Source of the DNA: a virus
DNA length: 23,509 nucleotides
Reading direction: 5' to 3' (one strand)
Virus record (IMG/VR): IMGVR_UViG_3300042454_000015
Span: 1-23,509 of that record
Every line of letters starts with the position of its first letter. Position 1 is the first letter of the stretch. Shown here in pieces: positions 6,775-23,509 of the stretch. The notes below the pieces were generated by a model, which did no database searches, was not told the DNA's origin, and worked only from the letters and a program-made list of their open reading frames with translations. The position numbers were made by a program, and so were the translations under genes.

Positions 6775-8046
6775 ATGGGAGAACCAACAAAAAATCCTGA
6801 TGACGCTCAGGTATTGGACACTACAACGGTAGACCAAGTAGATGTAAATATTGATGAGTTATTTGGTTCACCAGGTGCAGAAAACATTATGCTTCCTGCA
6901 GAAGGTGAAGAAGATAACAAACCAAAATCTTTATTCTCTAACCAGAATGTAGATGTTTCGTTCCTTGACAAGCCAGGTACAACTGCAGAAAGTAAAGCTG
7001 AAAAAGCTGAGATTAAAGCAGATGTAGATGAGGCAATTGCAGAGCTTGATGATTTAATTTCTCAAGAAGAAGATGCAGGTAATAAAGGAAGACCAAAAGT
7101 AGATAAATCTGGTCTTGCTGAGTTAGCACAAAAAATGATTGAAGAAGGTGCTTTAGTTCCTTTTGATGATGACAAACCATTAGAAGATTACACTACTAAA
7201 GATTTCAGAGAATTATTTGAAGCAAACTTTCAAGAAAGAGAAAATGCAATCAGAGAAAATACTCCAAAAGAGTTTTTCCAATCTCTACCTGAAGAACTAC
7301 AAGTAGCTGCAAAATATGTAGCTGATGGTGGTCAAGATTTAAAAGGTCTGTTTAGAACACTTGCTCAAGTAGAAGAAGTGTTTGAATTAGATGCTGATAA
7401 TGAACAACACCAAGAAGAAATAGCAAGACAATATTTGCATGCTACAAACTTTGGTACACCAGAAGAGATTGAAGAAGAAATCAAAGATTGGTTGGATATT
7501 GATAAGCTTGGACAAAAAGCTAGACAATTCAAACCAAAATTGGATAGAATGCATGAAGAAGTTGTAGCACATAAACTTGCTGAGCAAGAGTATAAGAAAC
7601 AACAACAAGCAGAACAAGCTAAAGATTACCAAGATAATGTGTATAATACATTAAGTATAGGTGAACTAGGAGGAGTTAAACTTGACAGAAAAGTTCAAGG
7701 TATGTTATACTCAGGATTAGTACAACCTAATTACCCATCTATCTCTGGTAAACAGACAAACTTGTTAGGACACTTACTTGAGAAGTACCAATTTGTAGAA
7801 CCAAGACATGACCTTATTGCTGAAGCATTATGGTTACTTGCAGATCCAGATGGTTACAAAGGTAAAGTAAGAGAACAAGGTTCTAAAAAAGCTGTAGAAG
7901 ATACAGTAAGAAAATTAAAAACAGAAGAAGCAAGAAAACTTTCAAGCTCTTCAACAAATACTGGTGCAGAAGAAAGCAGAAGACCTGCTTCTAAAGGACC
8001 ACAAAGAACACTTCCTAGACAGAATAACTTGTTTAAGAGGTTTTAA
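6775..8046 (+). CDS. probable head scaffolding protein
   Basis: The 423-residue protein sits between portal and capsid genes, where tailed phages usually encode the scaffold that templates prohead assembly and is later removed. It is rich in Glu, Asp, Gln and Lys. The N-terminal ~110 residues are acidic and low in hydrophobics. The middle (about 205-290) is strongly helical with heptad-like character. The C-terminus is a basic, Ser-rich tail ending in NNLFKRF, like the basic C-terminal arm some scaffolds use to bind capsid subunits. No cysteine is present. No protease motif was found, so scaffold is preferred over scaffold-protease fusion. It follows P1, with an A-rich leader (AACCAACAAAAATG) in place of a Shine-Dalgarno site. 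Confidence 0.65.
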   Translation: MGEPTKNPDDAQVLDTTTVDQVDVNIDELFGSPGAENIMLPAEGEEDNKPKSLFSNQNVDVSFLDKPGTTAESKAEKAEIKADVDEAIAELDDLISQEEDAGNKGRPKVDKSGLAELAQKMIEEGALVPFDDDKPLEDYTTKDFRELFEANFQERENAIRENTPKEFFQSLPEELQVAAKYVADGGQDLKGLFRTLAQVEEVFELDADNEQHQEEIARQYLHATNFGTPEEIEEEIKDWLDIDKLGQKARQFKPKLDRMHEEVVAHKLAEQEYKKQQQAEQAKDYQDNVYNTLSIGELGGVKLDRKVQGMLYSGLVQPNYPSISGKQTNLLGHLLEKYQFVEPRHDLIAEALWLLADPDGYKGKVREQGSKKAVEDTVRKLKTEEARKLSSSSTNTGAEESRRPASKGPQRTLPRQNNLFKRF

Positions 8047-8073: not shown

Positions 8074-9690
8074 ATGGCAACTCCAGTAATGAACAATGGT
8101 ATATTCCTCAGAGATACCGCTTACAATGCAAGTTCCCATGTGGATTCATACCACTTGGTAAACATGCTGAAAGATGCTGAGCCTATGGACTTAGGCCCAG
8201 TTGATTTATGGGCTATGGCTCAAAAAGTTGAAATGCCACTTTATCAAATGTCATCATTTGGTGGTAAAAATGTAATCATGGTTGATAATGCTCGTGGAGA
8301 GTACAAATGGCAGACTCCTGTATCTACAGATCTTCCATATGTAATTGAAGACATTGAGCCATCAAATGATTTCAAAGGTATTGATGGGACTACATTCCGT
8401 ATCAAATTAAGCAGACGTGAGTTTGGACATGGTGATATCATCACTTATGACAAATATAACGGTGTTGAGATGTATATTACAGCAGAGGATATCTTACCAA
8501 TTGGTGATGGATATATCTATACTGTACAGTTAGTAAACAATGACAACTTTAAATACTTAGATAGCAAATACTTAGCTAACGGTACTAAAGTATTCCGTAA
8601 AGGTTCTGCAAGAGGTGAGTATGGTGAGAGATTCTCTGACATTACTACAAGAACTGGTTTCCGTGAATTCTACAACTATGTAGGTGGAGCTGAAGCTCAC
8701 GTTCACTATTCAGTATCTTCTCGTGCAGACTTGATGATCAAAGGTGGAATGAATGCAGATGGTACAGTTCCTGTAACTGAGATCTGGAGAAACTTTGGTG
8801 CTACTAATGATCCATCTGTTACTTCTTTGGAAGATATGGTTAAAGTAATGGGTAAAGATAAAGTTAAGAAAGCATTTGATAATGGTGACTTATCTAGAAC
8901 TTTCCTTACTGGAATGGAAGCTGCTCACTTATCTAAAGTAGCAACGGATATTGAAACTTACTTAATGTGGGGTCAAGGTGGACGTATCAAACAAGATGGT
9001 CCAGATGACATGCGTTTATCTGTGGGTCTTTGGAAACAGTTGGATAACTCTTTCAAAAGAATCTACAATAAAAATAACTTTACATTGGACTTGTTCCGTT
9101 CTGAGATCTACAACTTCTTCAACGGAAAAGTTGAGTTCCAAGGACCAGATCCAAAACGCTCATTGGTTGTACAAACTGGTATGGGTGGTATGCGTATGGT
9201 TAATGAGGCTATCAAAAAAGAAGCTGTATCTTCAGGTTTATTAATTCAGGCTGCTGACATTGGTGCAATCACTGGTAAAGGTATGGACTTGAATTTTGGA
9301 TTTGCTTACACATCTTATGTAATTCCTTTCTTGGCAAATGTTAAGTTTGTATTGAACCCAGCATTTGACAATGTTCATACTAATGATATTGAGAACCCAA
9401 TCATTGATGGTTTCCCGTTATCTTCTTACTCATACATTATTTTTGATATCACAGATAATACTAATGACAACATCTTCTTGTTGAAATTATCTTGGGATAA
9501 TCAATTGAAATGGTGGTACCAAAATGGAACAATGGATTACATGGGACGTACCCAAGGATTCCAGTCTTCTGGACAATTCAATGGATACCGTGTAATGATG
9601 TCTCAAACAATGCCAGCTATTTGGGTTAAAGATCCAACTAAAGTTTTGAAAATTGTTATGAGAAATCCAATTACTGGTGGATCATTCTAA
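8074..9690 (+). CDS. probable major capsid protein
   Basis: The 538-residue product is taken as the main head subunit for three reasons. It lies after portal and scaffold. It sits just before a strong terminator, in its own transcription unit. Its codon use is unlike its neighbours: CGT for Arg, and TTC, ATC and AAC, appear far more often than in adjacent genes, which lean on AGA and TTT. That pattern fits the most abundant virion protein. It contains no cysteine. The sequence is rich in Gly, Asn and aromatic beta-strand segments, with a long helical stretch around residues 255-300, but an HK97 fold cannot be proven by eye. A purine-rich AAATAAATA leader precedes the ATG. The alternative is another abundant structural protein. 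Confidence 0.78.
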   Translation: MATPVMNNGIFLRDTAYNASSHVDSYHLVNMLKDAEPMDLGPVDLWAMAQKVEMPLYQMSSFGGKNVIMVDNARGEYKWQTPVSTDLPYVIEDIEPSNDFKGIDGTTFRIKLSRREFGHGDIITYDKYNGVEMYITAEDILPIGDGYIYTVQLVNNDNFKYLDSKYLANGTKVFRKGSARGEYGERFSDITTRTGFREFYNYVGGAEAHVHYSVSSRADLMIKGGMNADGTVPVTEIWRNFGATNDPSVTSLEDMVKVMGKDKVKKAFDNGDLSRTFLTGMEAAHLSKVATDIETYLMWGQGGRIKQDGPDDMRLSVGLWKQLDNSFKRIYNKNNFTLDLFRSEIYNFFNGKVEFQGPDPKRSLVVQTGMGGMRMVNEAIKKEAVSSGLLIQAADIGAITGKGMDLNFGFAYTSYVIPFLANVKFVLNPAFDNVHTNDIENPIIDGFPLSSYSYIIFDITDNTNDNIFLLKLSWDNQLKWWYQNGTMDYMGRTQGFQSSGQFNGYRVMMSQTMPAIWVKDPTKVLKIVMRNPITGGSF

Positions 9691-10811: not shown

Positions 10812-11303
10812 ATGGCAACAAAAAAAATGCAAAAAGGTGGTGGAGTAAAACCTAAATCTACTGCTAAAAAAACAGCAGAACCTAAATTTACACCTCCAAA
10901 TAATAAACCTACTACAGATAGTACAAATTATTATGTGGATAAATATAAGTATTATAAAGATGCAGGTTATAGGCTTGCTGGTGTAAAAGGTCAATCTGAA
11001 AACTCACAAAACGCCTATGAAAAAGCTGAAAAAGCTAAAAAAGATGTGGGAAGACAGACAAGAAAAAGTATGCCTGGTTTTGATAATAATGGTTTTCCTG
11101 CAAAAATGCAAACAGGTGGAATGGTAAATTCTAATGCAAAAGTTACTGCATCTAAAGTTGCTAAAGGTAGACCTGCTAAATCTGCTGAACCAAGAACTGC
11201 AGCTAAAAAAGCTACAGGTAAAGTAGGTGGAGTTTCTAAAGCTCCAAAAGCTGCTGCACCAAAAATGAAAATGGGTGGTAGCATGAAAAAGAAATCTTGC
11301 TAA
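10812..11303 (+). CDS. small basic protein with three GG motifs, 163 aa
   Basis: This is the first of five consecutive lysine-rich small genes. The product is very basic and low-complexity in Lys, Ala, Gly and Pro. It has short motifs KKMQKGGG near residues 4-11, AKMQTGGM near 98 and PKMKMGGSMKKKSC at the C-terminus. A tyrosine-rich segment (YYVDKYKYYKDAGYR, about 39-54) is the only part that looks folded. The composition suggests nucleic-acid binding or an internal head protein. The paralog-like motif is shared with the next genes, so the set probably acts together. The start follows the previous stop by 12 A-rich bases. The function is unknown. Confidence 0.7.
   Translation: MATKKMQKGGGVKPKSTAKKTAEPKFTPPNNKPTTDSTNYYVDKYKYYKDAGYRLAGVKGQSENSQNAYEKAEKAKKDVGRQTRKSMPGFDNNGFPAKMQTGGMVNSNAKVTASKVAKGRPAKSAEPRTAAKKATGKVGGVSKAPKAAAPKMKMGGSMKKKSC
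10821..10840 (+). repeat. 20-base repeat encoding the KMQKGG motif, copy 1
   Basis: AAAAAAATGCAAAAAGGTGG is repeated at 12018-12037 and 12474-12493, always in frame to encode Lys-Met-Gln-Lys-Gly-Gly. The identity reflects a repeated peptide within the basic-protein cassette; low-complexity codons make some of it expected. Confidence 0.6.
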
Positions 11304-11304
11304 A

Positions 11305-11457
11305 ATGGCAAAGCAAATGCTAAAAAGAAAGGATGGTAGTTATTCCCAGAGAGGACTCTGGGATAACATCCGTGCTAATAAAGGTTCTGGAAAGAAACCT
11401 ACAACAGCAATGCTTAAGCAAGAGAAGAAGATTAAAGCAACTTCAAAAAAGAAATAG
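11305..11457 (+). CDS. very small basic protein, 50 aa
   Basis: ATG at 11305 opens a 50-codon frame that starts 2 bases after the previous stop's last T-A-A triplet ends (one intervening base) and stops with TAG at 11455-11457, 2 bases before the next ATG. The product begins MAKQMLKRKDGSYSQRGLWD, continues with a helix containing DNIRANKGSGKKP and ends in a Lys-rich tail. Seven Arg/Lys-rich patches and one Trp are notable. The QRGLWDNIRAN stretch resembles a short conserved block I recall in small proteins of many phages, but I know no function. It fills the gap exactly between two cassette members, which supports it being a real gene despite its size. Confidence 0.7.
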   Translation: MAKQMLKRKDGSYSQRGLWDNIRANKGSGKKPTTAMLKQEKKIKATSKKK

Positions 11458-11459
11458 TC

Positions 11460-11969
11460 ATGGCAGACAAAGTTAAATTTAATACCGGCAAAGAAAAACA
11501 TGTAGTTTATAAAAAGACTACTAAAAGAGGTGAAGGTAAAGTTGGTGACATTATGGTCAACCATACTAGTAAAAATAAGGGAACTTATGATACTATTAGT
11601 TTAACTAGAACTGCTAATGCTAAGACTGTAAAGCAAGGTGTTTCTGCTGAAAAAAAATGGCATAAGGAAAATGATAAAGCACCTAAAATGAAAACCGGAG
11701 GTTCTACTCCTGCATGGACTAAAAAAGAAGGAAAAAATCCTACAGGTGGATTAAATGCTAAAGGTGTTGCTTCTTATAGAAGAGAAAATCCTGGTAGCAA
11801 ACTTAAGATGGCTGTTACAACTAAACCATCTAAATTAGATCCAGATAGTAAAGATGCTAAAAGAAGAAAATCTTTTTGTGCTAGAATGTCTGGAGTAAAA
11901 GGTCCTATGAAGGATGAAAAAGGAAGACCTACTAGAAAGGCTCTTTCATTAAAAAAGTGGAACTGTTAA
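11460..11969 (+). CDS. DUF6321-like small basic protein, 169 aa
   Basis: The last ~100 residues form a conserved block I recall from many phages of aquatic bacteria, including cyanophages (DUF6321, name from memory). It runs PAWTKKEGKNPTGGLNAKG, then YRRENPG, then RRKSFCARMSGVKGPMKDEK, ending in LSLKKWNC. The block is very basic and has two cysteines, one in SFCARMSG and one at the C-terminal residue. The N-terminal ~70 residues are Lys-rich and lead into PKMKTGGST, the cassette's shared GG motif. The function of the family is not known to me. It starts with a TAG-TC-ATG junction. Strong conservation across distant phages suggests a real structural or DNA-contact role. Confidence 0.75.
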   Translation: MADKVKFNTGKEKHVVYKKTTKRGEGKVGDIMVNHTSKNKGTYDTISLTRTANAKTVKQGVSAEKKWHKENDKAPKMKTGGSTPAWTKKEGKNPTGGLNAKGVASYRRENPGSKLKMAVTTKPSKLDPDSKDAKRRKSFCARMSGVKGPMKDEKGRPTRKALSLKKWNC

Positions 11970-11981
11970 AATAAATATATC

Positions 11982-12602
11982 ATGGCTAAAAAATGTATGA
12001 GTTGCGGAGGTGCAATGAAAAAAATGCAAAAAGGTGGAAGTAATGTTAAGATGGGTATCTACGGTATTCCTCAAGAAAACATTGGAACATCTAGTCAATT
12101 CCAACCTACTGCTAAAAAAGGTGGTGCTGTTAAAAAAGCTTTACCTAAAGCTCAAGATGGGAAAACTGTTAAAAAAGTTGGTCCTAATAAATATGCTAAA
12201 GATCAAGTAATTGTAAATAAAAAAGATGGTTCTTCAGCTTCATATGTTGCAACAAATAAAGGAACTGTATATTCTACAAAAAATAAAAAAAATGGTCCAG
12301 CAGATGTTTTAAGTATTGATACAACAGGTTACTCAAAAGGTAAACCAAATTATGATCAAATTTATACAGGAAATGCGGGTTATAACAAAAGTACTGTAAA
12401 AAGAAAAGATGTTAAACCTTTATTAAAATCTATGAAAAAAGAAACATTAAGTTTTAAAACTGGTGGAATAGTTAAAAAAATGCAAAAAGGTGGAGCTACT
12501 AACTTTGGTATGTTATCAGTTAAAGCTGGTGTAGATAAAAATCCAAGAGCTACTGCTGCAGATAGAATTGCTGGTGCAAAAAAATCTGTTAAAAAGAAAT
12601 AG
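11982..12602 (+). CDS. basic protein with CxxC and two KMQKGG motifs, 206 aa
   Basis: The N-terminus MAKKCMSCGG has a single Cys-x-x-Cys, followed by KKMQKGGS near residue 13. A second copy, TGGIVKKMQKGGATN, lies near 160-175, and related short pieces (KKGGAVKKALPKAQDGK) lie near 55-72. Between them, about 75-155, is a more ordered region with beta-like segments (KYAKDQVIVNKKDGSSASYV, TVYST). The C-terminal ATAADRIAGAKKSVKKK resembles endings I recall in similar phage proteins. It is very Lys-rich with no membrane segment. It shares the motif and codon character with its neighbours, so it belongs to the same functional set. The function is unknown. Confidence 0.7.
   Translation: MAKKCMSCGGAMKKMQKGGSNVKMGIYGIPQENIGTSSQFQPTAKKGGAVKKALPKAQDGKTVKKVGPNKYAKDQVIVNKKDGSSASYVATNKGTVYSTKNKKNGPADVLSIDTTGYSKGKPNYDQIYTGNAGYNKSTVKRKDVKPLLKSMKKETLSFKTGGIVKKMQKGGATNFGMLSVKAGVDKNPRATAADRIAGAKKSVKKK
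12018..12038 (+). repeat. repeat encoding the KMQKGG motif, copy 2
   Basis: Same 20 bases as at 10821-10840, followed by A, in the N-terminal part of the 206-residue basic protein gene. Confidence 0.6.
12474..12494 (+). repeat. repeat encoding the KMQKGG motif, copy 3
   Basis: Third copy of the 20-base string, near the 3' end of the same gene as copy 2. The two copies within one gene are 456 bases apart, an in-frame distance. Confidence 0.6.
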
Positions 12603-12604
12603 TC

Positions 12605-12847
12605 ATGGCAACAACTAGAGCTGTAAAAACTTCTTGTAAAAATACAAAGGTTAGATCTGCAAGTGGATCATGTGTTAAAGAAAGACCATCAATGAAAAAA
12701 GGTGGTTCTACTGGTGATAAGAAATGGATTCAAAAAGCTATTAATCCTGCACACAAAGGTTATTGCACTCCACTTACTAAAAAAACATGCACACCTAAGA
12801 GAAAAGCTCTTGCTATCACTTTGAAAAAAATGGCTAAAAATAAATAA
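12605..12847 (+). CDS. small basic cysteine-containing protein, 80 aa
   Basis: This is the last of the basic cassette. The product has four cysteines: two in the first 25 residues (TSCKNTK, SGSCVKE) and two in YCTPLTKKTCTPKRKALA. The MKKGGST near residue 30 is the reduced form of the shared GG motif. The C-terminal half from KKWIQKAINPAHKG onward is a conserved block I recall in other phage small proteins, where WIQKAI is followed by a basic helix. The pairs of Cys could bind zinc or form disulfides. It starts with the same TAG-TC-ATG junction as the gene at 11460 and ends 2 bases before the next gene. Confidence 0.7.
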   Translation: MATTRAVKTSCKNTKVRSASGSCVKERPSMKKGGSTGDKKWIQKAINPAHKGYCTPLTKKTCTPKRKALAITLKKMAKNK

Positions 12848-13550: not shown

Positions 13551-14069
13551 ATGGAAACTAAAGCAAGATTACTAAAAAGAAATCCAGAACCTACTAAGAC
13601 ACTTAGTAGACCCCAACCTATTGTTACACAACCTAAAGATGAACCTGCTAAAGCTGAACCTACTCCAGATACAGGAGTTGGTGGAAGTTCATTGGATACA
13701 ATGACTGCAGCATGTGCAACAGAGATGATGAATGCAGCAATCAGTTTTCATAGACTTCATTTAAAAGTAAAAGGAGATGGTTCTTATGCAGCACATAAAG
13801 CTCTTGGAAATTTTTATGAAGGGCTTCATGATCAAGCAGATACACTAATAGAAGGATATCAAGGAGTATGTGAAAAACTTTTATCATATAAAGATTCACC
13901 TATTAGAACTCTAGATACTGTGTCAGATGCTATAGGTTACTTAAGAGACATGTACAACATGGTAAATAAATTACAAGGTATGATGCCTTATTCAGAAATT
14001 GTCAACAATTTGGATCTTGTAAAAGATTCAATTAACAGCACTAAGTATAAGTTACTTTTCTTGAAATAA
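13551..14069 (+). CDS. Dps/ferritin-like protein
   Basis: The 172-residue product has a Pro-rich disordered N-terminus (1-45), then helices. In FHRLHLKVKG and AAHKALGNFYEGLHDQADTLIEGY, residues H70, H82, D97 and E101 fall at spacings of 12, 15 and 19, exactly as the H51, H63, D78 and E82 ferroxidase ligands of E. coli Dps. One further Dps ligand (D67) corresponds to G86 and is missing. HLKVKG also matches the HWNVKG hallmark of the family. Dps proteins form 12-subunit shells that oxidise iron and may bind DNA. Phage members exist (I recall DUF5856), but their job is unclear. The position among structural genes suggests a virion or assembly role. Whether it oxidises iron is not known. Confidence 0.72.
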   Translation: METKARLLKRNPEPTKTLSRPQPIVTQPKDEPAKAEPTPDTGVGGSSLDTMTAACATEMMNAAISFHRLHLKVKGDGSYAAHKALGNFYEGLHDQADTLIEGYQGVCEKLLSYKDSPIRTLDTVSDAIGYLRDMYNMVNKLQGMMPYSEIVNNLDLVKDSINSTKYKLLFLK

Positions 14070-14135: not shown

Positions 14136-15821
14136 ATGGCTTATTTTAATCATGCTTTCAAAAAAAGCTTTCTAGCAACAGGACCGACACAAAATGCGTT
14201 TCCTGTTACTCTTCCAAATGGAACTACTGTTAATGCTACAACATCTTTAGGTTATTTGGTATCAAATGGTATTCCTACTTATGGTTTAAATCAATTATCT
14301 GCAATTAAAGTTGGTACTTACGGTACAGCTACTACAGAAACTACTGATGGGTACATTGGATGGTTTAACCCAAAAACAAATTTATCAGTTGATATCAATG
14401 ATGAAGGATTTGCACCTTGTTGTAATTTATATCTTGCTGGTTCAGCAATTTATTCAAATGATAAGATTGGTCCTTTAGCAGGTGGTTACCAAGAGACTAA
14501 CAAGTCTAAAATGGTTAACCCTAAATATGTATCTAGATTTTATCAAGTAAATCCATGTACTCCACAAAATAATGTAATCCACGTAGGTTCTACATATTGG
14601 ACTGCAGGTGGTGGTATTTTAGATTTTGATACTTTTACTGCTGGTACAGGTTATGCTAATGGTACTTATACTGCTACTACTACAGGTGGTACAGGAACAG
14701 GTCTTGTTGTAGAAATCGTTGTAACTGGTGGTACTATTGATAGTTATACTATTGTAAATCCTGGAAAAGGATATACTATAAATGATGATCTTACAATTGT
14801 AGGTGGTAACAATGATGCTATATTAACTGATGTACTTGTTCTAACTGAAGCTCATGCACAAGTAGGATGTGGTATTACAACTGAGTGTTGTAAAGAATTT
14901 TTATGTGGTGAGACTTATAACTTACGTATTGATGTTAAAGGTTCTCCAGCATTACGTTTCTTAAATCACAATGCTTACTATACTGCTGATGCATACACAG
15001 GATGTTGCCCAGAAGGATCTATTGCACCAGTTGCAGTTGACTCTACTGAAGTAATGATCAAATGGGCTAGCGGAATTACAAACAATCCAATTGTATCTCC
15101 TTTTGTACAAGTAGTTGTACAAGCAGAAGATGGTCAGTTATTATATGCACCAGGAACTTCTGCTACTTTCTTAGCTGCTAATGGAGCTATTACTTGGGAT
15201 AACTATGTATCTGCTGGTCATACAGACGGAGCTTGTGCAGGTTTAATCTTAAATGGTGCTTATGTTGATACTAAATTTGGTGATTGTACATTCCAATTGA
15301 CTGACTTCTATGAAGTTGAGCCAGTTAGATTATATGCTTCTGAAGTAGACTTATCTGGTGACCCATGTACATTTGATTCATTATGTGTTGTTACTGAGTG
15401 TCAAGGATTACAAGTTCAAGGTTTAGGAGAATCAGTTGTAAGAGATATGACTATGTCAGAATCTTACAGACAAAACTTCTTAGCTACAGACTTACGTATC
15501 CGTGAGATTACTCAAGGTAACCAAATCATTAGTTCAGTTAACAGAGGTGCTTTATACTACAGATATATGTTACAACATAATGTTCCAAGAAATTATAATC
15601 CTTCTGGTACATTTGATTCTGATCAGTACATGTTAGAGATATTCTCTTTAGTTGCTCTTAATACTTTTGCAACGGATACTTCTGGTTGGTTAGAGGCTTG
15701 TGGTGTATGTGAAACTAATGTATTAGATAATGCATATGCTTGTGATACGGAATGTGATGTTCCAATTGCATTCCCTGCTATTCCTAAATACAATCCTTAC
15801 AATACAGTTGCTTGTAACTAA
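14136..15821 (+). CDS. abundant virion structural protein with inserted beta domain, 561 aa
   Basis: The N-terminal part (about 1-155) contains NKSKMVNPKYVSRFYQVNPC. The C-terminal part (about 245-561) contains ETYNLRIDVKGSPALRFLNH, HTDGACAGLILNGAYVDTKF and DLRIREITQGNQII. I recall these blocks in uncharacterised virion proteins of large aquatic phages. A Gly/Thr-rich module is inserted at about 160-235. The protein has many cysteines, including pairs CC at 95-96, 251-252 and 290-291. Frequent CGT codons, its own promoter-like motif P2 and terminator T2 suggest high expression. It could be a tail, collar or head-decoration protein; the sequence does not decide. No transmembrane or enzyme motif is seen. 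Confidence 0.65.
   Translation: MAYFNHAFKKSFLATGPTQNAFPVTLPNGTTVNATTSLGYLVSNGIPTYGLNQLSAIKVGTYGTATTETTDGYIGWFNPKTNLSVDINDEGFAPCCNLYLAGSAIYSNDKIGPLAGGYQETNKSKMVNPKYVSRFYQVNPCTPQNNVIHVGSTYWTAGGGILDFDTFTAGTGYANGTYTATTTGGTGTGLVVEIVVTGGTIDSYTIVNPGKGYTINDDLTIVGGNNDAILTDVLVLTEAHAQVGCGITTECCKEFLCGETYNLRIDVKGSPALRFLNHNAYYTADAYTGCCPEGSIAPVAVDSTEVMIKWASGITNNPIVSPFVQVVVQAEDGQLLYAPGTSATFLAANGAITWDNYVSAGHTDGACAGLILNGAYVDTKFGDCTFQLTDFYEVEPVRLYASEVDLSGDPCTFDSLCVVTECQGLQVQGLGESVVRDMTMSESYRQNFLATDLRIREITQGNQIISSVNRGALYYRYMLQHNVPRNYNPSGTFDSDQYMLEIFSLVALNTFATDTSGWLEACGVCETNVLDNAYACDTECDVPIAFPAIPKYNPYNTVACN
14613..14840 (+). other. inserted Gly/Thr-rich beta module within the 561-aa protein
   Basis: Residues about 160-235 read as a repeat-like beta unit: GTGYANGTYTATTTGGTGTG, then VVTGGTIDSYTIVNPGKGYT, then NDDLTIVGG. 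The G-x-GY-x-x-GTY and NPGKGYT marks are typical of modular beta domains I recall scattered in structural proteins of marine phages. Flanking segments appear to form one continuous protein, so this looks like an insertion at a surface loop. Confidence 0.6.
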
Positions 15822-15895: not shown

Positions 15896-16438
15896 ATGGC
15901 AAATCACGTCTTAAGTTTAGAAGTACCTACAGTTTTAAATACATGTGTAATGACTGTTATGGATACTAGTGTTTATACGGACCTTATTCCGGTTACGTGT
16001 GAGACATTAGCTATTACAGTACCAGGTTTTACTTACTCAGTTGAACTTCCTGTTACTGCAGGATTTATTGAAAACATTACTGCTTGTGACTTAGGTTTAC
16101 AAACAGCAGACTGTGGTACAAGTTATGTAGATATACCAGATGGAATTTATATAATTAAATATAGTGTATCTCCAAATGAACAAGTGTATGTAGAATACAA
16201 TCATTTGAGAATATCAAAAGCATTAAACATGTATAACAATATTCTATGTGGAGTAGATGTTAATGCATGTGATCCTCCTTTTGCAATTAAAGAAAAACTT
16301 GAAGCATTAAGAATGATATTTATGTATCTTCAAGCTGCAAAAGCAAAAGTAGAAACATGTCATGAACCTCAAAAGGGAATGAGCTTATATAATTATGCTG
16401 TAAAACTTTTGAAGAAAATGGGATGTGTAAATTGTTAA
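15896..16438 (+). CDS. two-domain structural protein (beta N-terminus, helical C-terminus), 180 aa
   Basis: The first ~100 residues are beta-rich (TLAITVPGFTYSVELPVT, then PDGIYIIKYSVSPNEQVYVE). The rest is helical (YNHLRISKALNMYNNILCG, IKEKLEALRMIFMYLQAAKA, KGMSLYNYAVKLLKKMGC). There are eight cysteines by my count, two of them in the CVNC end. I recall this pattern, with the CHEP and YNYAVKLL blocks, in phage genes next to Cys-rich fibre proteins, without a known function. The helical part could bind a partner and the beta part could serve as an adaptor. The start is only 10 bases beyond the T2 T-run; the adjacent TATATACT could act as a -10 element but would leave almost no leader. Confidence 0.65.
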   Translation: MANHVLSLEVPTVLNTCVMTVMDTSVYTDLIPVTCETLAITVPGFTYSVELPVTAGFIENITACDLGLQTADCGTSYVDIPDGIYIIKYSVSPNEQVYVEYNHLRISKALNMYNNILCGVDVNACDPPFAIKEKLEALRMIFMYLQAAKAKVETCHEPQKGMSLYNYAVKLLKKMGCVNC

Positions 16439-16459: not shown

Positions 16460-16660
16460 ATGGCAAAGTGTGCAAATTGCGGGGCTAATATGTCCTGCGG
16501 ATGTCAAAAAAGAGCAGCTTCAAACGGAGCAACGGCATGTTCATCATGCATTAATACATTAGAGGCTTCAATCAAAGCTGCAAAAATAGGTGCAAAATCA
16601 GTTACTGAACCGCGTGTTATTAAAGCAACTACTTGGGGTCCAGATAGATACAATAAATAA
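16460..16660 (+). CDS. small zinc-ribbon-like protein, 66 aa
   Basis: The N-terminal half has CANCGANMSCGCQKR followed by ACSSC, that is C-x-x-C, C-x-C and C-x-x-C, enough for one or two zinc sites. The C-terminal part is basic and ends in TTWGPDRYNK. No enzyme motif is visible. The CAxCG pattern recurs at the N-terminus of the fibre-type protein at 20484 (KCAKCGC), which hints at a shared assembly or anchoring role. It lies 21 bases after its neighbour, with a CCAATAAG leader, and 9 bases before the Cys-rich repeat protein. The function is unknown. Confidence 0.65.
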   Translation: MAKCANCGANMSCGCQKRAASNGATACSSCINTLEASIKAAKIGAKSVTEPRVIKATTWGPDRYNK

Positions 16661-16669
16661 TTAAAGAAG

Positions 16670-18907
16670 ATGAAAGTAGATCCGGTTGATAGTCCGTTAA
16701 TAAGATATTATAAGTTTACATCATGTTGTGATTCAAATGATGTAGTATCTTTTAGTATGTCTGGTTTTTTAGGCCCATTGGTTTATGAACCTGGAACTTA
16801 TATATATACTGGACCGGCTCCTTATGTAGATTCTTATGGTGCGTTTTTAGTACCTGGTAGATGTTATTATGTTGAAACACCTATTGCTTTAACATCTGTA
16901 GTTTTAACTATGTTTAATATGCCTCCAACTACACAGGTCGGATTATTAGGTGATTTATATGTTGTAGGTTTTACATGTTTAGATTCAGATCTATGTCCTG
17001 ATTGTAATTCATTTACATATTGTAATGAATGTCCTGAATCTTCAGAAACTATATCATATACTTTAGTTGATGGAATATGTATTGCAAGTGATGGATTTTA
17101 TTCATGGTCATTTCCTTCTGTTGCTTGTGATTGTTATGTTTTAATTCCATGTGATGGAGTAACAGAACCTTTTGTAAGTACAACAATTGACTTAGGAGGT
17201 TATTTAGATCAATTTATTAATATTACCTCTGGTAGCTATACAGGATGTGTATACGTAACAACATTAGAAAGTACAGATTGTTCAGGTGCTGTTAGTGTTA
17301 CAATTAATCCAGAAATAACATGTGATTGTGAAACTGTATGTTATTATATTGAAGGAGCTCAAGGAATTACTTATGTTAAGTATGTTGATGAGTCAGATCA
17401 GTTAGTTGAGTTTACTCCAGCAGGAACATTACCATGGTTAACCATATGTTCTAAAACATTTCCTATAGTAGGTAATATTAATACAAATTATATTATAACA
17501 CCATTAGGACCATGTATAGATAATGTATGTCCACAAAAATGTTATAAACTTACTGATTGTGAAGATCCATTAAATATTCAATATAGTACATCATTTGTTT
17601 TATTACCACATGCTATTAATGATGATGTAATTAAAATTGCAGGATTTACAGAATGTTGGAGAGTAGAAACTACTGAGGATGATTGTGAGTGTGCTATTGA
17701 TGTTAGTGTAACTTTTAGTTCAGCTACTTGTGCAATTTGTAAAACTGTAGTGGCTTATAAATTAACTAGTTGTACTGGAGTATATACTACTCAATATACA
17801 TACCAAGATTTATCACAATATGTTGGTGAAACATTATTAACAGACTGTGGATGTTTCATAGTAGAATTAATTAATTATGCCCCGCCTTCTATACAAGTAA
17901 TAACTATTATTACATCTTTTAGAGATTGTGCAACATGTGAAAGACCCTACTATAGATTAACTGAATGTAGTACAGAAGAAACAATAGATACTTCTAGTGA
18001 CTTAGGTGCCTACATAGGTAAGATTGTAAAGCTAGCAAATTGTGATGGTTGTTATGAAGTTGAATTAATTATAATTCCAGTTAATCCAAGTATTGTTACG
18101 GTAACAGATTCTTTTGTAACATGTTTAGAGTGTATAACTACTGCACCATGTATTTGTTCTAATGTTAGAAATGATAATGCAATAAACTATACATATGACT
18201 ATATTGATTGTTATGGTGATGTACAATCTATTACGGTAGCTCCTGGAGAAACTAGTCCTAAAATATGTTTAATAAAATGGTTAGAACCTGTAGATTGCAA
18301 TTGTCTTATTATAGCAACTACAGTAGGAACAACAACAACGTATAACATTTTATTTTCTACTGGTACACTAATTAACTATAGACCTTCATGGGAAGTAGTT
18401 GGTGTAGCAAGTATTTTTTATAATGGTACTCAATGGGTTAAAACAAATAGTTTAGGAATTCCTGATTATTATTTACCACCATCAGATGCAAAATGTCCAA
18501 TAGGAGTTTGGCATCCGTATTCAAGTATACCAAATTTAGTACCTACTACAGTAGTTACTAATCCTTGTCAAAGTTATTATACTTATTTTGGTGATTGCAA
18601 TAATGGAGTATGTCCTGCAACTATATATCCTAAAAGAAGTATTAAACCAGGATATAACACACCAGCATGTAGTATTGAAAAGTATGAAAATATTTCTTGT
18701 AGAGCATCTCAAATACTCTATAGAAATGTTCTTAACTTAAGATATGGGATTGCAAACTGTTGCCCAGAAGATGATGAATACTGGTTAGTTAAAAAAGAAT
18801 TAATAGATATAGCAGCATTATATAATCCTGATTTTAATTGTACTCCAGCAAATAGCTGTGGGTGTAATCAATCAAGTGATTGTGGATGTAATAGTTGCAA
18901 TTCTTAA
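16670..18907 (+). CDS. cysteine-rich repeat appendage protein, 745 aa
   Basis: By my count 57 of 745 residues are Cys. The middle (about 153-489) is a tandem array of units of roughly 65-70 residues. The clearest begin KCYKLTDC (290), AYKLTSC (362) and YYRLTEC (427). Each continues through a polar beta stretch with Leu-x-x-Tyr-x-Gly (LSQYVGE, LGAYIGK) and a Cys-Trp/Tyr-x-Val segment, and ends with C-x-x-C. A module with DYIDCYGDVQ and PGETSPKIC (about 508-533) follows. The C-terminal domain ends in the Cys cluster CGCNQSSDCGCNSC. I recall such repeats in phage fibre-type proteins. The role is inferred to be a virion appendage. No signal peptide is present, so assembly in the reducing cytoplasm may favour metal binding or late disulfide formation. 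Confidence 0.68.
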   Translation: MKVDPVDSPLIRYYKFTSCCDSNDVVSFSMSGFLGPLVYEPGTYIYTGPAPYVDSYGAFLVPGRCYYVETPIALTSVVLTMFNMPPTTQVGLLGDLYVVGFTCLDSDLCPDCNSFTYCNECPESSETISYTLVDGICIASDGFYSWSFPSVACDCYVLIPCDGVTEPFVSTTIDLGGYLDQFINITSGSYTGCVYVTTLESTDCSGAVSVTINPEITCDCETVCYYIEGAQGITYVKYVDESDQLVEFTPAGTLPWLTICSKTFPIVGNINTNYIITPLGPCIDNVCPQKCYKLTDCEDPLNIQYSTSFVLLPHAINDDVIKIAGFTECWRVETTEDDCECAIDVSVTFSSATCAICKTVVAYKLTSCTGVYTTQYTYQDLSQYVGETLLTDCGCFIVELINYAPPSIQVITIITSFRDCATCERPYYRLTECSTEETIDTSSDLGAYIGKIVKLANCDGCYEVELIIIPVNPSIVTVTDSFVTCLECITTAPCICSNVRNDNAINYTYDYIDCYGDVQSITVAPGETSPKICLIKWLEPVDCNCLIIATTVGTTTTYNILFSTGTLINYRPSWEVVGVASIFYNGTQWVKTNSLGIPDYYLPPSDAKCPIGVWHPYSSIPNLVPTTVVTNPCQSYYTYFGDCNNGVCPATIYPKRSIKPGYNTPACSIEKYENISCRASQILYRNVLNLRYGIANCCPEDDEYWLVKKELIDIAALYNPDFNCTPANSCGCNQSSDCGCNSCNS
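17126..18136 (+). repeat. tandem protein repeats of about 65-70 residues
   Basis: Units begin near residues 153, 224, 290, 361 and 427 of the 745-residue protein. The last three are clearest, each with a Y-K/R-L-T-x-C start and C-x-x-C end. The DNA is too diverged for a nucleotide repeat, which points to old duplication. Confidence 0.6.
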
Positions 18908-18910
18908 TTA

Positions 18911-18932
18911 TAATTTGTATATTATATTAATA
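18911..18932 (+). promoter_or_regulatory. putative late promoter P3 (fibre unit)
   Basis: TAATTTGTATATTATA at 18911-18926 is identical over 16 bases to P1 and is followed by TTAATAG. It occupies almost the whole 35-base gap before the gene at 18943. The ATG is 17 bases after the shared core. Confidence 0.55.
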
Positions 18933-18942
18933 GTAAAAAAGT

Positions 18943-20472
18943 ATGAAGCCGTTAAATTTAGATAATTCACCATGTAGTCCTATATCAAGTAACTGTGTTA
19001 TTTGGCAAGGACCAGACTTGGCATGTATTAAATTATGTAAGGGAGATACAGTCTCTGATGTTGTTGCTAAAATGGCTACAGAATTATGTACTATCCTAGA
19101 TCAACTTAATGTAGATAACTATGATCTAACATGTTTTAATTCAACAGCCTGTCCTCCAGTAGATTTTAAAGCACTGATTCAATTTTTAATTGAACACATA
19201 TGTGCATTAGAGAATGCTAATGTAGTTACAGTAACTACAATTAATCCTCCTAATACTACAAGTACAACATATCCAATAAGTTACCCTCAATCAAATACAT
19301 GTCCTGATTGTGTAGTTTCTGTAGCACCATGTTTTATTATTGGTACACAAACAACTATGCAGTTAACAGATTATGTTACAATGATTGCGGAAAAATTATG
19401 TGATTTAATTGATACTATTGCAACAATGCAAAATCAAATTAATAACATTGATGCAAGAGTAACTGTTTTGGAAAACGCGCCAGCTCCAAGTTTTACATTA
19501 CCAACTGTTTTTATTGACTGTACATTATCTCCAACAGTTGTTGGCGGCAATTCTTATCAGATTGATGTTATATTAGATGCCTTTATAAATAATTTATGGT
19601 GTCCATTTTATACAGTAGTAGGTTCTATAGCTGATATTAGTTCTAGTTTAGGTTCTATTTGTGTAGTTGCAAGTGATACATCTGTTGCATTTAATGAGGA
19701 CACAATGACAACGGCTTATAGTAATTGGATAGATGCACCATTAACTTTAGCGGCTTCTGTAAATAATTTATGGGTTGCTCTATGTGATTTAAGATCAGGA
19801 TATAGCACATATCAATTTATAGATTTGGGTTTACCAGAAAGTGTTTCATTCACAACAACATCTACACCTAACGTATATGGTGGTCAAACTTATACTGTAT
19901 CAGGTGTAACTAAACCAAAGGAAAATTTCTTTAATCAAATTGTTTCAACAGTACAGATTAAAGATGATTTAGTTCCTTCAGTAGATGTATATCATTTTCC
20001 TACAGGATATTCTACTTTAACTTATACATACCCATTAGGACTTACTGTAGCAACATTTGTAGTTCAAGTTTCTTATGATGTAAGTACAATGTTTTCAGGT
20101 TCAATTATAAATAATGCCGATATTGGAAACTGGGTTGATGGTGCTATTGTTAAAACAGTAGGTGTTGTAGATACAGTTCAATATCAAAGTTTTGCCGGTA
20201 GAACATTTTTAAGTGGTTATTTATTTGATGGTGCTTTAATTACAGATATTGTAAATACTGTATCAACAGATAAAGTTTTAACTACACCTTCTGGAGATCC
20301 TGTTGAATTTAGATTTTCAAATGGTCAACTAAATAATAATATTTCATTTATGAGTGTTGTAACATTAAATCCAGGAGAAACAATAAGTTTGAAATTTAAA
20401 ACAAAAGATACTTCAACTAATTCTGTTTTAACTCAAGCTCAATTATTAATACAAGAATTAATTCAAAATTAA
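18943..20472 (+). CDS. fibre-type structural protein, 509 aa
   Basis: The N-terminus (about 1-90) contains NCVIWQGPDLACIKLCKGDT followed by helical VAKMATELCTILDQL and FKALIQFLIEHICALE. I recall this conserved N-terminal pattern in phage fibre proteins of Bacteroidota and marine phages, where it is probably the virion anchor. A related helix recurs at about 142-180, extending into a likely coiled coil (MIAEKLCDLIDTIATMQNQ, then INNIDARVTVLENA), as in trimeric fibres. From 185 on, the protein is beta-rich and low in Cys: shaft and tip domains. It shares transcription unit P3-T3 with the next gene. Which host structure it touches cannot be told from sequence. Confidence 0.7.
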   Translation: MKPLNLDNSPCSPISSNCVIWQGPDLACIKLCKGDTVSDVVAKMATELCTILDQLNVDNYDLTCFNSTACPPVDFKALIQFLIEHICALENANVVTVTTINPPNTTSTTYPISYPQSNTCPDCVVSVAPCFIIGTQTTMQLTDYVTMIAEKLCDLIDTIATMQNQINNIDARVTVLENAPAPSFTLPTVFIDCTLSPTVVGGNSYQIDVILDAFINNLWCPFYTVVGSIADISSSLGSICVVASDTSVAFNEDTMTTAYSNWIDAPLTLAASVNNLWVALCDLRSGYSTYQFIDLGLPESVSFTTTSTPNVYGGQTYTVSGVTKPKENFFNQIVSTVQIKDDLVPSVDVYHFPTGYSTLTYTYPLGLTVATFVVQVSYDVSTMFSGSIINNADIGNWVDGAIVKTVGVVDTVQYQSFAGRTFLSGYLFDGALITDIVNTVSTDKVLTTPSGDPVEFRFSNGQLNNNISFMSVVTLNPGETISLKFKTKDTSTNSVLTQAQLLIQELIQN

Positions 20473-20483
20473 AATATATTATC

Positions 20484-21224
20484 ATGGGTTTAAATACTAA
20501 ATGTGCAAAATGTGGATGTGAAGATAATTTCTTGACAACGCCTGCACCATGCCCAACTCCGGTAGCATGTCCTACTCCTCCTCAATGTGATTTTGTTTTA
20601 GAAGCACAATGTACTATATATATAGGAGATAGTATTTTATGTGGCACAGATGTGGTGGTTCCTAATGATACAAATATGGAAGCTGCTATCAATAACATTG
20701 TAGATTATTTTTGTAGTAGAACTACAACTAGTGCTAACATAGTATGTGGTACAGATGTAGTAGTAGTTTCAGGAACTCCTGTGTTAGGTGCTTTAGTTTC
20801 AATAACTAATTATTTTTGTACTGAAATTGCTAACTTACCAACAGTATCTATACTTGGCGATAATGGAATTTTAGTTACTTCAAATGTTGTAGGTACTAAT
20901 ACTGAATATACAATAAGTGCAAATGGACTTAAGAAGTTTGTAAAAGAATTTACAGGTATAGAATTTGATGGTCAAGTAATAACTATAGCAGGTGCAGAAC
21001 TTACAGCATGTGGTTTATTATCATCAGCTTGTGGTGTTAGCACAACTAAAGCATCAGATTTTACATTTAACATTATGTATCTTTTTGCAGGAAATTGGAT
21101 TAGTCTTACAAATCAAGCAGGGGTTATTGTACAAGCAAATAATATCACGGGAAATATTTCAATTACATTAGGTTTACCAGCCGTTGATCCACCAGTTACT
21201 GTAAGAGTAACTATTATTGGATAA
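20484..21224 (+). CDS. fibre-type protein with Cys/Pro-rich N-terminus, 246 aa
   Basis: The N-terminus has TKCAKCGCEDNFLTTPAPCP and CPTPPQC, a Cys/Pro-rich segment known to me from companion fibre proteins in related phages. Two copies of a ~27-residue unit follow: LCGTDVVVPNDTN...DYFC (51-77) and IVCGTDVVVVSGT...NYFC (86-112). The C-terminal ~100 residues, starting GLKKFVKEFTG, look like a beta-rich tip domain (FNIMYLFAGNWISLTNQ, VTVRVTIIG). The size and domain order suggest a short fibre or a tip carried by the larger fibre encoded 11 bases upstream. Terminator T3 follows 42 bases after the stop. Confidence 0.68.
   Translation: MGLNTKCAKCGCEDNFLTTPAPCPTPVACPTPPQCDFVLEAQCTIYIGDSILCGTDVVVPNDTNMEAAINNIVDYFCSRTTTSANIVCGTDVVVVSGTPVLGALVSITNYFCTEIANLPTVSILGDNGILVTSNVVGTNTEYTISANGLKKFVKEFTGIEFDGQVITIAGAELTACGLLSSACGVSTTKASDFTFNIMYLFAGNWISLTNQAGVIVQANNITGNISITLGLPAVDPPVTVRVTIIG
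20634..20819 (+). repeat. internal duplication in the 246-aa fibre protein
   Basis: Residues 51-77 and 86-112 share CGTDVVV near the start and D/N-YFC at the end, with a period of 35 residues. It encodes two copies of a small module also echoed in the helical units of the 509-residue protein. Confidence 0.55.
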
Positions 21225-21337: not shown

Positions 21338-21919
21338 ATGAAGGAATTTAATAAACCAGATGTTAAAGCTCCAAGGTTTAGACCAGGAGTTTACAATGTA
21401 ATGAACAAAAAGTTCTTTGATAGCTTTAGGGAAAAGCATCCTAAGTATAAAGATATGGATAATGTTATGTTAAGAAAGATAGGCAAAACATTTAACCAAA
21501 CTATATACCAGGCTGTTATAGATAACCGGGATGGAGTGGAACTTCCAGAACAACTTGGTTGGCTATTTATTGGTACATGCCAACAAAGTAAAAAACAAAA
21601 TGTTGATTTTAATAAATCAAAACAGTATGGTGTTAAAGTAAGTAACAATAACTGGGCAACAGATGGAAAGTTAGCAAAGATATTCTTTTCAAATTTTGCA
21701 CCTAAACATAAGATAAAGAATAGAGAGTATTGGAAGTTTGTAGGTTGTAGGGATTTTAAAAGAACAGTTGCAAAAACATATCCTGAAAATTGGAATATGT
21801 ATGTAGAGATTGAGCCAAACAAACAAGTTAAACTTGCATACTCTAAAGCTATATACAAAGACATAATAATCAAAGAAACTACTGAAGCTTTAAAGACTTA
21901 TAATGAATTTGAAATATGA
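21338..21919 (+). CDS. conserved crAss-type protein of unknown function, 193 aa
   Basis: The start chosen is ATG at 21338. A longer frame from the non-ATG codon at 21272 would begin inside terminator T3 and encode a hydrophobic stretch that does not fit, so it is rejected. The product MKEFNKPDVKAPRFRPGVYN... contains NRDGVELPEQLGWLFIGTC near the middle and FKRTVAKTYPENW near the end. I recall these blocks in a protein conserved in crAss-like phages, where it lies next to collar genes. It is basic and probably alpha/beta, without a known enzyme motif. Its last bases overlap the next gene by ATGA (21916-21919). It may act in assembly or DNA handling, but this is inference. Confidence 0.68.
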   Translation: MKEFNKPDVKAPRFRPGVYNVMNKKFFDSFREKHPKYKDMDNVMLRKIGKTFNQTIYQAVIDNRDGVELPEQLGWLFIGTCQQSKKQNVDFNKSKQYGVKVSNNNWATDGKLAKIFFSNFAPKHKIKNREYWKFVGCRDFKRTVAKTYPENWNMYVEIEPNKQVKLAYSKAIYKDIIIKETTEALKTYNEFEI

Positions 21920-22578
21920 CAACAATTGGACAAGCAATTTCAAGAGTAAGAAATACATTAAAAGCTGTTAAGGAAGATCCTTTCTTAACGGATAGAATGA
22001 TATACAATTCTTTACTCAAGTATGCACAGACTCTTATAAAGAGAGAAGACAATCAGTTTAGACTTATGAAGATGAGTCAGATATTTAAGGTATTGCCTTA
22101 TGTAGAACTGATTGATGTAGATAAAGTTGAAGCAGGTTGTATTGGAGTTTACTCTGACTGTTACTTTAAAAGATCTAAAGAAAAACTTCCTACAATATTA
22201 AATGGAATGTTTGGTCCAATTATCCGTACTACATCTTCAATTGATGGTACTACAGAAATGTTTAGAACAGATCCCGGAACATGGTCTTCAATAACTAAGT
22301 CTACTACTTTTAAGTATAATAGAAAACAATACTTCTGGTATCTTGAAGGTTATATATACTGTCCTAATGTAGATTGGGATGCTATTAGAATTGAAGCAAT
22401 CTTTGATGGCCAATTAGATACATGTGATAGTGATCCTTGTTTATCAAGACAAGATGACCAATTTGTATTACCAGAGTATTTATTCTCTGAGGCTGAACAA
22501 TATGTAATAAAAGAATTAACAATGTCTATGTCTGTACCAGGTGATGGAGCAGATGACGGCCAAAATGCACTTAGATAA
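21916..22578 (+). CDS. crAss-type collar/ring protein, 220 aa
   Basis: The protein begins with a helical domain (TTIGQAISRVRNTLKAVKE, DPFLTDRMIYNSLLKYAQTL) followed by a beta-rich core. The core includes FKVLPYVELIDVDKVEAGCI, RTTSSIDGT and KSTTFKYNRKQYFWYLEGYI. The C-terminal part is PEYLFSEAEQYVIKELTMSM, ending in DDGQNALR. I recall the same blocks in ring proteins that stack under the portal in crAss-like phages. The order of helix pair, beta core and C-terminal helix matches the head-tail adaptor design. It overlaps its upstream neighbour by 4 bases and its downstream neighbour by 1 base (TAATG). Confidence 0.75.
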   Translation: MTTIGQAISRVRNTLKAVKEDPFLTDRMIYNSLLKYAQTLIKREDNQFRLMKMSQIFKVLPYVELIDVDKVEAGCIGVYSDCYFKRSKEKLPTILNGMFGPIIRTTSSIDGTTEMFRTDPGTWSSITKSTTFKYNRKQYFWYLEGYIYCPNVDWDAIRIEAIFDGQLDTCDSDPCLSRQDDQFVLPEYLFSEAEQYVIKELTMSMSVPGDGADDGQNALR

Positions 22579-23509
22579 TGGATTTTAATTACACATTACG
22601 TTACAGAACATTTGATCAGTTACTGGAAGATGTTACTATTGACCTTAATACATTTGCTTTAGAGAATATGATTGAGCCACAACAGCTTATCAAATTAGCT
22701 AGAAAATTAAATTATGAGTTGGGTCTAAGAATTAATCAGCAAAAAGAAGCTGTGTTAGATATCTGTCATGGTAGAGTAAAATTACCAGATGATTTTTATA
22801 CATGGAACTACGGTCTTGTATGTAATGAGTTTACAGAAGCAGTGGGTTATGATGGCTTAGCTGGTGGAACAAATATACAAGAGGTTCCCTATAGAGGAAT
22901 TTCTTATAGTGAAACACCAAGTACTGTTGCTCAATGTGCTGCACCAACTGTAAACTGTAGAACATGTAATTCAAACCCATGTAATCATACAGCAGCTTGT
23001 GATCTTAATCATCCTATAGTAGATCCAATACCTACACAGTATGATCCAAACAATCCATATGGAGATACATGTATTGCTCCAAGAGTATTTATGAATTGTA
23101 AAGGAGAGAAGTGGGAAATTGTACAAGTGATAAATCCTAGTTTAACTAGAGTTTATAATTCTTTGGTTCCTTTAAGAATGAAAAGAAGTCAAGAAATTCA
23201 CTGTGAATGTCCTAACTTATATTATAATACTCCAAATGAAGGTTGGATTAAAAATGGTTATTTATTTACAACATTTGATACAGGTAAAGTTTATATAAAC
23301 TATATGGGTGAACTTGTTGATGATAACGGAAACTTAATGGTTCCTGATCATGCCTTATTAAATGATTACTATGAGTATGCTTTTAAGAAAAGAATAATTG
23401 AGAACCTTGCTTTGAATGGAGAAGATGTAGCACAAAGATTACAATTAATTATTCCAGAATATAAAGCGGCAAGAAATCAAGCAATCAGTTTAGTTAATAC
23501 ACCTAACTT
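22578..23509 (+). CDS. crAss-type collar/ring protein, partial at the right edge
   Basis: An ATG at 22578-22580 overlaps the preceding TAA by one base, and the frame stays open to the end of the window (310 codons). The start MDFNYTLRYRTFDQLLEDVT, the motif RVKLPDDFYTWNYGLVC and the helical end EYAFKKRIIENLALNGEDVA match a conserved crAss-like ring protein that I recall. LPDDFY corresponds to the adaptor motif seen at 12850 (PGEYLQW). A middle insertion is Cys-rich (CRTCNSNPC, CDLN). It should form part of the collar between portal and tail. The true C-terminus lies beyond this window, so length cannot be compared. Confidence 0.72.
   Translation, partial: MDFNYTLRYRTFDQLLEDVTIDLNTFALENMIEPQQLIKLARKLNYELGLRINQQKEAVLDICHGRVKLPDDFYTWNYGLVCNEFTEAVGYDGLAGGTNIQEVPYRGISYSETPSTVAQCAAPTVNCRTCNSNPCNHTAACDLNHPIVDPIPTQYDPNNPYGDTCIAPRVFMNCKGEKWEIVQVINPSLTRVYNSLVPLRMKRSQEIHCECPNLYYNTPNEGWIKNGYLFTTFDTGKVYINYMGELVDDNGNLMVPDHALLNDYYEYAFKKRIIENLALNGEDVAQRLQLIIPEYKAARNQAISLVNTPN

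Follow-up and report, generated by a model that had tools for sequence, protein, structure and literature searches.

The stretch of DNA analyzed here (IMG/VR virus record IMGVR_UViG_3300042454_000015, positions 1 to 23,509; 23,509 nucleotides, hereafter the window) carries a block of genes for cysteine (Cys)-rich proteins, named gpA to gpF. The Cys residues of two of them, gpA and gpD, are lost and gained in pairs. We think it likely that the products of the block belong to the outer virion of a large crAss-like clade, and that their Cys mostly form structural disulfides by oxidation during or after lysis. For proteins made in the reducing cytoplasm, structural disulfides are generally regarded as rare. 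A preliminary description, made from the sequence alone, had noticed the Cys and proposed that they bind metal in the cytoplasm or form disulfides after lysis; its observations are partly confirmed and its interpretation is partly supported. The feature is real and very well conserved, and the disulfide explanation is well supported by evolution, though chemically unproven.

The Cys-rich block

The genes of the block and the two following it are listed below, with lengths in amino acids (aa).

14136..15821, + strand: gpA, 561 aa with 19 Cys; capsid auxiliary protein (AUX) by fold (AlphaFold2 (AF2), VIA, BFVD)
15896..16438, + strand: gpB, 180 aa with 9 Cys; candidate tail hub protein A (THA) from its place and homologues
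16460..16660, + strand: gpC, 66 aa with 6 Cys (C4, C7, C13, C15, C27, C30); at the THB place
16670..18907, + strand: gpD, 745 aa with 57 Cys (7.7%); putative fibre or hub-associated protein
18943..20472, + strand: gpE, 509 aa with 16 Cys, all within the first 281 residues
20484..21224, + strand: gpF, 246 aa with 13 Cys; Cys-rich N-terminus, profile overlapping that of gpE
21916..22578, + strand: gpH, 220 aa with 5 Cys; ring protein R2 (Pfam CrAss_Ring_2, E 2.5e-17; crAss001 gp40, E 9.5e-10)
22578..23509, + strand: open reading frame (ORF) at the R1 place, truncated where the window ends; 11 Cys counted by eye in the portion present

The earlier counts were right, with 57 Cys in the 745-aa protein and 9, 6, 16 and 13 in its neighbours at 15896, 16460, 18943 and 20484. 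The extent given for the Cys-rich set was too narrow: it starts earlier, with gpA, and continues past position 21224 into the ORF at the R1 place, whose counterparts in most relatives have about 345-366 aa and 10-13 Cys. The claim that capsid and scaffold proteins have no Cys holds for the major capsid protein (MCP; 8074-9690) and the acidic scaffold-like protein (6775-8046), both with 0 Cys, but not for gpA, by fold a capsid auxiliary protein. We examined six near-complete relatives, reading them in stretches no longer than 20 kb, and it turned out that their high-Cys proteins fall mostly within this block. Because the proteins outside the high-Cys group average only 0.65-0.89% Cys, the block is really unusual.

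Among distinct homologues, gpC contains 6 Cys in 63 of 65 cases and 7 in the other two, while gpB contains 9 in 63 of 75 and 10 in 8 of 75. The number is 15-21 for gpA (72 of 75) and 35-77 for gpD (69 of 69), and the MCP has none in 99 of 107. Cys columns are also more conserved than other columns (0.89 vs 0.55 in gpA, 0.95 vs 0.63 in gpB and 0.88 vs 0.32 in gpD). Compared by residue type, conservation in gpD is highest for Cys by a wide margin (0.91), followed by W (0.60).

Pairwise Cys changes in gpA and gpD

To follow Cys changes, we counted events on trees of homologues from which records L085-L087 and a gpA cut by a contig end (L151) were excluded; the first gpA and gpB sets also excluded L189 and L190. 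The large set kept gpA of at least 350 aa, gpB of at least 140 aa and gpD of 380 to 1300 aa. Columns in which gaps exceeded 15-30% (the limit differed between analyses) were dropped, and identical proteins were collapsed while near-identical ones were kept.

In the first gpA set, Cys 141 and 536, 252 and 367, and 95 and 522 were each lost on the same branches. More distant relatives were then added, bringing 83 distinct sequences and a total of 169. In this tree the two members of 252-367 share 10 events (of 10 and 11), those of 141-536 share 5 (of 7 and 6) and those of 95-522 share 4 (of 6 and 6). In 200,000 branch-length-weighted draws, the observed sharing was reached 0, 0 and 1 times, respectively. 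The 83 later sequences give the same picture (here and below, gap cells are left out): both Cys are present in 41, both lost in 31 and discordant in 2 for 252/367; the numbers are 37, 30 and 4 for 141/536, and 53, 27 and 3 for 95/522. A partner was found for 6 of the 7 gpA Cys columns with at least three events, but for only 2 of 1504 columns when the remaining 19 residues were considered (Fisher p 1e-14). All 17 core Cys are present in 83 of the 169 sequences, only 141+536 are missing in 31, only 252+367 in 11, and both of these pairs in 12; the other 32 have other patterns, including single losses, and divergent members miss 7 to 12 Cys. Positions 96-525 form a weaker pair, with both Cys in 147 sequences and few discordant, but a single shared event. 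The gpA pairs span 115-427 residues, and 95-522 and 141-536 link the N-terminal to the C-terminal part. In crAss001 gp36, these two parts make up one discontinuous PH-like domain, according to PMC10172136.

For gpD (135 sequences), both Cys, neither and discordant were counted in 66, 41 and 3 sequences for 193-218, in 71, 45 and 3 for 222-241, and in 96, 14 and 0 for 494-514. None of 2000 draws reached the observed sharing for any of these three pairs. The pair 341-393 (98, 26 and 4) is weaker, with p 0.004 before correction for 1431 pairs, and would join neighbouring repeats. Columns 6 and 51 of the gpD repeat are also strongly associated (phi 0.97; both Cys in 144, one in 5, neither in 180), but they are not counted as independent evidence because repeat types are inherited.

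For gpB, a gain of Cys 95 and 108 in one event of the first set was considered and rejected, as the larger set did not show these two changing together in several events.

Disulfide bonds or metal binding

A disulfide should disappear as two Cys, a metal site as a group of about four, so the paired loss and gain support disulfides in gpA and gpD. The gpA pairs 95-522, 141-536 and 252-367, with the weaker 96-525, and the gpD pairs 193-218, 222-241 and 494-514, with the weaker 341-393, would thus be disulfides in the virion. Of the two possibilities raised in the preliminary description, this favours the disulfide for gpA and gpD, while metal remains a candidate for the terminal clusters and gpB.

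Several points weigh against the disulfide explanation. The Cys events come from Fitch parsimony on FastTree trees built from MAFFT alignments. On one gpA branch, which leads to 17 sequences, 8 core Cys disappeared together, gpA Cys 96, 251 (twice), 417, 522 and 525 were also lost singly, and the N-terminal half of gpD shows many single Cys events. Since the 17 core Cys of gpA and the 9 of gpB are both odd numbers, at least one Cys per chain should be free or intermolecular. In gpB, none of 66 column pairs was listed under the rule used, its Cys being too invariant to tell. That gpA coats the head is suggested by homology, and so is the presence of the block proteins in the virion. Finally, oxic water alone is insufficient as an explanation and high Cys rather marks a part of the order, because the AUX-place protein of the gut phage csAssE-Sib is Cys-rich and that of Cellulophaga phage phi17:2 has only 8 Cys of 650 residues.

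A mixed explanation, which overlaps with the preferred one, keeps intrachain disulfides in gpA and gpD and assigns the terminal clusters of gpB, gpC, gpD and gpF to intermolecular disulfides or shared metal sites, which would lock the fibres to the docking hub. We give it a serious chance, somewhat short of even. It would account for terminal Cys clusters that recur in neighbouring genes, for the C-terminal Cys pair kept by the THA family and for the odd Cys numbers in gpA and gpB, and it has a parallel in the hub-hub and hub-ring disulfides of crAss001 (reported in PMC10172136). However, the contacts between chains that it supposes are hypothetical, and the match of gpB to THA is weak.

It is rather improbable that the Cys bind metal (Zn) structurally in the cytoplasm and remain metal-bound in the virion. 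Such binding needs no oxidation despite the reducing cytoplasm, and clusters of C-x-x-C and C-x-C do lie at protein ends, namely in gpC (6 Cys in 27 residues), the gpD tail and the gpF N-terminus. What speaks against it is that Cys of gpA and gpD are lost and gained in twos while other pairs are kept, although this argument reaches neither gpB, gpC nor the termini. Besides, C-x-x-C is not enriched in gpD. With 57 Cys placed at random in 745 residues, 4.3 occurrences are expected for each spacing, compared with 8 seen for C-x-C (p 0.055), 7 for C-x-x-C (p 0.13) and 2 for CC; an excess of C-x-C or C-x-x-C is absent from the other tested proteins, too. The C-x-x-C, C-x-C and CC patterns pointed out in the preliminary description are therefore nothing special at that Cys density, and we do not take the spacings as an argument for metal. 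The last alternative, that the Cys reflect drift in codons or amino acids and serve no structural purpose, had nothing in its favour and has a negligible chance in view of the conservation of Cys in gpD, the low Cys content of the other proteins of the six relatives and the lack of tRNA-Cys in these relatives, where the only tRNA found is one tRNA-Arg in each of two.

Proposed maturation and redox genes

Under the preferred disulfide explanation, gpA would coat the head, gpB and gpC would form the probable tail docking hub, and gpD-gpF would be probable fibre or hub-associated proteins. By inspection, not by a dedicated predictor, none of the proteins has a signal peptide, as the preliminary description had stated (the top 12-residue mean hydropathy in the first 45 residues is 1.53), so they should be made in the cytoplasm. 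There they would also be assembled in reduced form. Oxidation would follow during or after lysis, spontaneously or possibly with host enzymes, pairing most Cys within each chain and some perhaps between chains. This would lock the folds, such as the two-part PH-like domain of gpA and the bead-like repeats of gpD, and the disulfides would stabilize the free virions.

We searched 25 records for redox genes. DsbA was found in none (controls positive in 8 of 14), and neither was glutaredoxin (controls positive in 13 of 14); spontaneous oxidation at or after lysis is suggested because both are lacking in the 25 records. Evr1/Alr was found in none of the 25 either, but no control genome was positive, so its absence is not demonstrated. 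Thioredoxin was matched in 2 of 25 records at E 0.001, one of which is over the Pfam cut-off (G022:C1:96428-96721, L191). The Cys and their conservation, the gpA fold and the paired changes are observed; the presence of the bonds in the virion, their timing and their purpose are inferred. A stronger version is a redox-switch maturation, in which several hundred AUX copies and the hub and fibre set, assembled reduced, become on lysis a disulfide-stapled and partly intermolecular covalent armour without a phage-coded oxidase. We regard this version as doubtful, though conceivable.

gpA, an auxiliary capsid protein by its fold

The AF2 model of gpA has a predicted local distance difference test score (pLDDT) of 83. 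Using VIA, it was aligned to 7qof_a, a 333-residue chain of the PhicrAss001 capsid, with Z 14.3 and root-mean-square deviation 4.4 over 304 of 333 residues; the next row of another virus has Z 8.4, and FliD rows have 5.7 and 4.9. In BFVD, gpA is matched by proteins from gut and marine crassviruses, including a 423-aa protein of cr128_1, in which the gene directly before THA encodes a protein of just this length. The gpA gene directly precedes gpB, whose match to THA is weak. According to PMC10172136, crAss001 gp36 (AUX; 333 residues) has a two-domain build, PH-like and FliD-like. Judged by its modelled fold, PH-like plus FliD-like, gpA is the AUX. The profile of 169 gpA against gp36 reached E 0.22. 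Foldseek of gpA against PDB gave nothing at E 0.001, the AUX match having come from VIA and BFVD, and profiles of gpA, gpB and gpD against PDB sequences gave nothing credible. The earlier label "appendage proteins" thus does not fit gpA, while hub or fibre roles of the others are putative, being suggested by gene order and weak profile matches.

Proteins at the AUX place contain 0-2 Cys in ten gut phages. Elsewhere, the numbers are 8 of 650 residues in phi17:2, 15 of 631 in Leptolyngbya phage Lbo-JY46 and 21 of 662 in csAssE-Sib.

Architecture of gpD and the other proteins

An iterated repeat profile located four repeat units in gpD, which are followed by a length-variable segment.

17129..17317, + strand: gpD repeat unit, residues 154-216
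17528..17731, + strand: gpD repeat unit, residues 287-354
17738..17929, + strand: gpD repeat unit, residues 357-420
17933..18124, + strand: gpD repeat unit, residues 422-485
18269..18595, + strand: gpD length-variable segment, residues 534-642; candidate receptor-binding part

Among 135 homologues, the length of segment 533-643 ranges from 0 to 347 residues, and the C-terminal helical part of gpD is well conserved. The AF2 model (pLDDT 80, predicted template modelling score 0.40) had no match in PDB at E 0.001 by Foldseek, and the best VIA Z was 5.4 (residues 541-635). We annotate gpD as a putative fibre or hub-associated protein; place and variability suggest a fibre function for gpD-gpF. Two homologues deserve mention. 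One (L122 9088-11541) misses many otherwise invariant Cys together and may be mosaic or a divergent paralogue; the other, an 855-aa protein with 62 Cys, occurs in a record that also encodes a second very Cys-rich protein, of 1010 aa with 69 Cys (G007 67552-70584, L215).

Homologues of gpB are present in L085, L086 and L087, and the gpB gene sits between the AUX and R2 genes. Comparison with the THA family by hhalign was split (73% with 6 rows, 7% with 90 rows). There are Cys at the C-terminal end of gpB, where the THA family keeps its Cys pair, and we regard gpB as a candidate THA. Together with gpC it is a probable tail docking hub. No match to PHROG was found for gpC, whose Cys may form a disulfide knot or a Zn site. 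For gpE there is a weak match to crAss001 gp23 (E 9e-4). With iterated profiles of gpE and gpF (18943-21224), several proteins of a single locus are drawn in, which may mean that the two are paralogous or have a domain in common.

Source contig and relatives

Judged by its marker genes, the window is a Crassvirales contig. It encodes TerL and a portal protein (phrog_6681, E 1.3e-54; phrog_6547, E 8.9e-95), an MCP (PF23898 Crass_capsid, 108.9 bits with a cut-off of 27) and several ring proteins of the order, i.e. the PF25702 CrAss_Ring_2 protein at 21916 and a 232-aa product at 12850 similar to crAss001 gp34 (E 1.7e-6). When the portal was compared with the 'phages' collection, Lbo-JY46 (33%) and csAssE-Sib (29%) ranked highest. 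Bacteroidota are likely hosts for the order. A relative of the MCP is encoded in at least 596 of the 599 pattern stretches listed, and one of gpB in 216 of 219. Calling the clade environmental rests on its IMG/VR contigs and on the lack of a close-identity match among isolate and gut records of the 'phages' collection, in which tblastn with gpD and gpA gave no match.

The ring and AUX genes flank a gene for a 172-aa protein (13551-14069; DUF5856 / phrog_858, annotated as starvation-inducible transcriptional regulator), which we take to be Dps-like, and many relatives keep a product of similar size at this place. Four small Lys-rich proteins (10812-12847), some with recurring KMQKGG-like stretches and one with DUF6321, differ in length and number among relatives. 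An exonuclease (371-1207; phrog_298 / PD-(D/E)XK superfamily) is encoded upstream of the terminase.

Significance and comparison with known systems

In a widely sampled phage group, the head-coat protein thus has 15-21 Cys in most members and a repeat protein has 35-77, and these evolve as pairs. The analysis gives named residue pairs for a direct test, a fold-based AUX annotation in these crassviruses and a model for virion stability gained after release. No description of Cys-rich AUX or fibre proteins of crassviruses was found in open-licence titles and abstract starts, which is not proof that none is in print; the articles consulted include PMC10172136, PMC11054128 and PMC8923235.

Three other phages are partly similar to the window. 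Lbo-JY46 (PP438436.1) has homologues of gpA (E 1.1e-13) and gpB, but its gpA homologue has fewer Cys (15) and no gpD homologue was found among the proteins tested; two tRNA-Cys are annotated in this phage (L085 2093-2241). In csAssE-Sib (Epsilon crAss-like, OR575929.1), a Cys-rich protein at the AUX place (21/662) is followed by a repeat protein, as in the window, and a gpB homologue is present. However, the gpA profile does not recover the AUX-place protein (E 0.51), the gpB homologue has 4 Cys of 292 residues, and the repeat protein (L086 29784-31526; 580 aa, 18 Cys), with about two Cys per repeat, is apparently another Cys-paired repeat than that of gpD. One tRNA-Cys is annotated in csAssE-Sib (L086 3350-3421). 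For phi17:2, BFVD contains a gpA-like fold (R9ZWX4, E 1.6e-8) and the gpB homologue is annotated as structural protein, while its AUX-place protein is poor in Cys (8/650).

The closest parallel in kind is PhicrAss001 (Kehishuvirus primarius; PDB 7QOF/7QOI/7QOL), which shares the gene order ring, AUX, hub, R2 and the AUX fold, and whose THA gp38 is likewise Cys-rich (11/215). As stated in PMC10172136, the tail barrel, the docking hubs and the gp57 dimer carry disulfides, and those of the tail barrel and hubs are seen by cryo-EM in the purified virion; the formation of bonds of this kind is therefore known for the order. PhicrAss001 differs in that its AUX gp36 has 1 Cys of 333 residues compared with 19 of 561 in gpA, and in that no counterpart of gpD was found, whereas gpD-gpF lie here between the hub-place and R2 genes. 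In conclusion, the kind of feature is known from PhicrAss001, and what is new is its extent, in the number of Cys, and its place, on the head coat.

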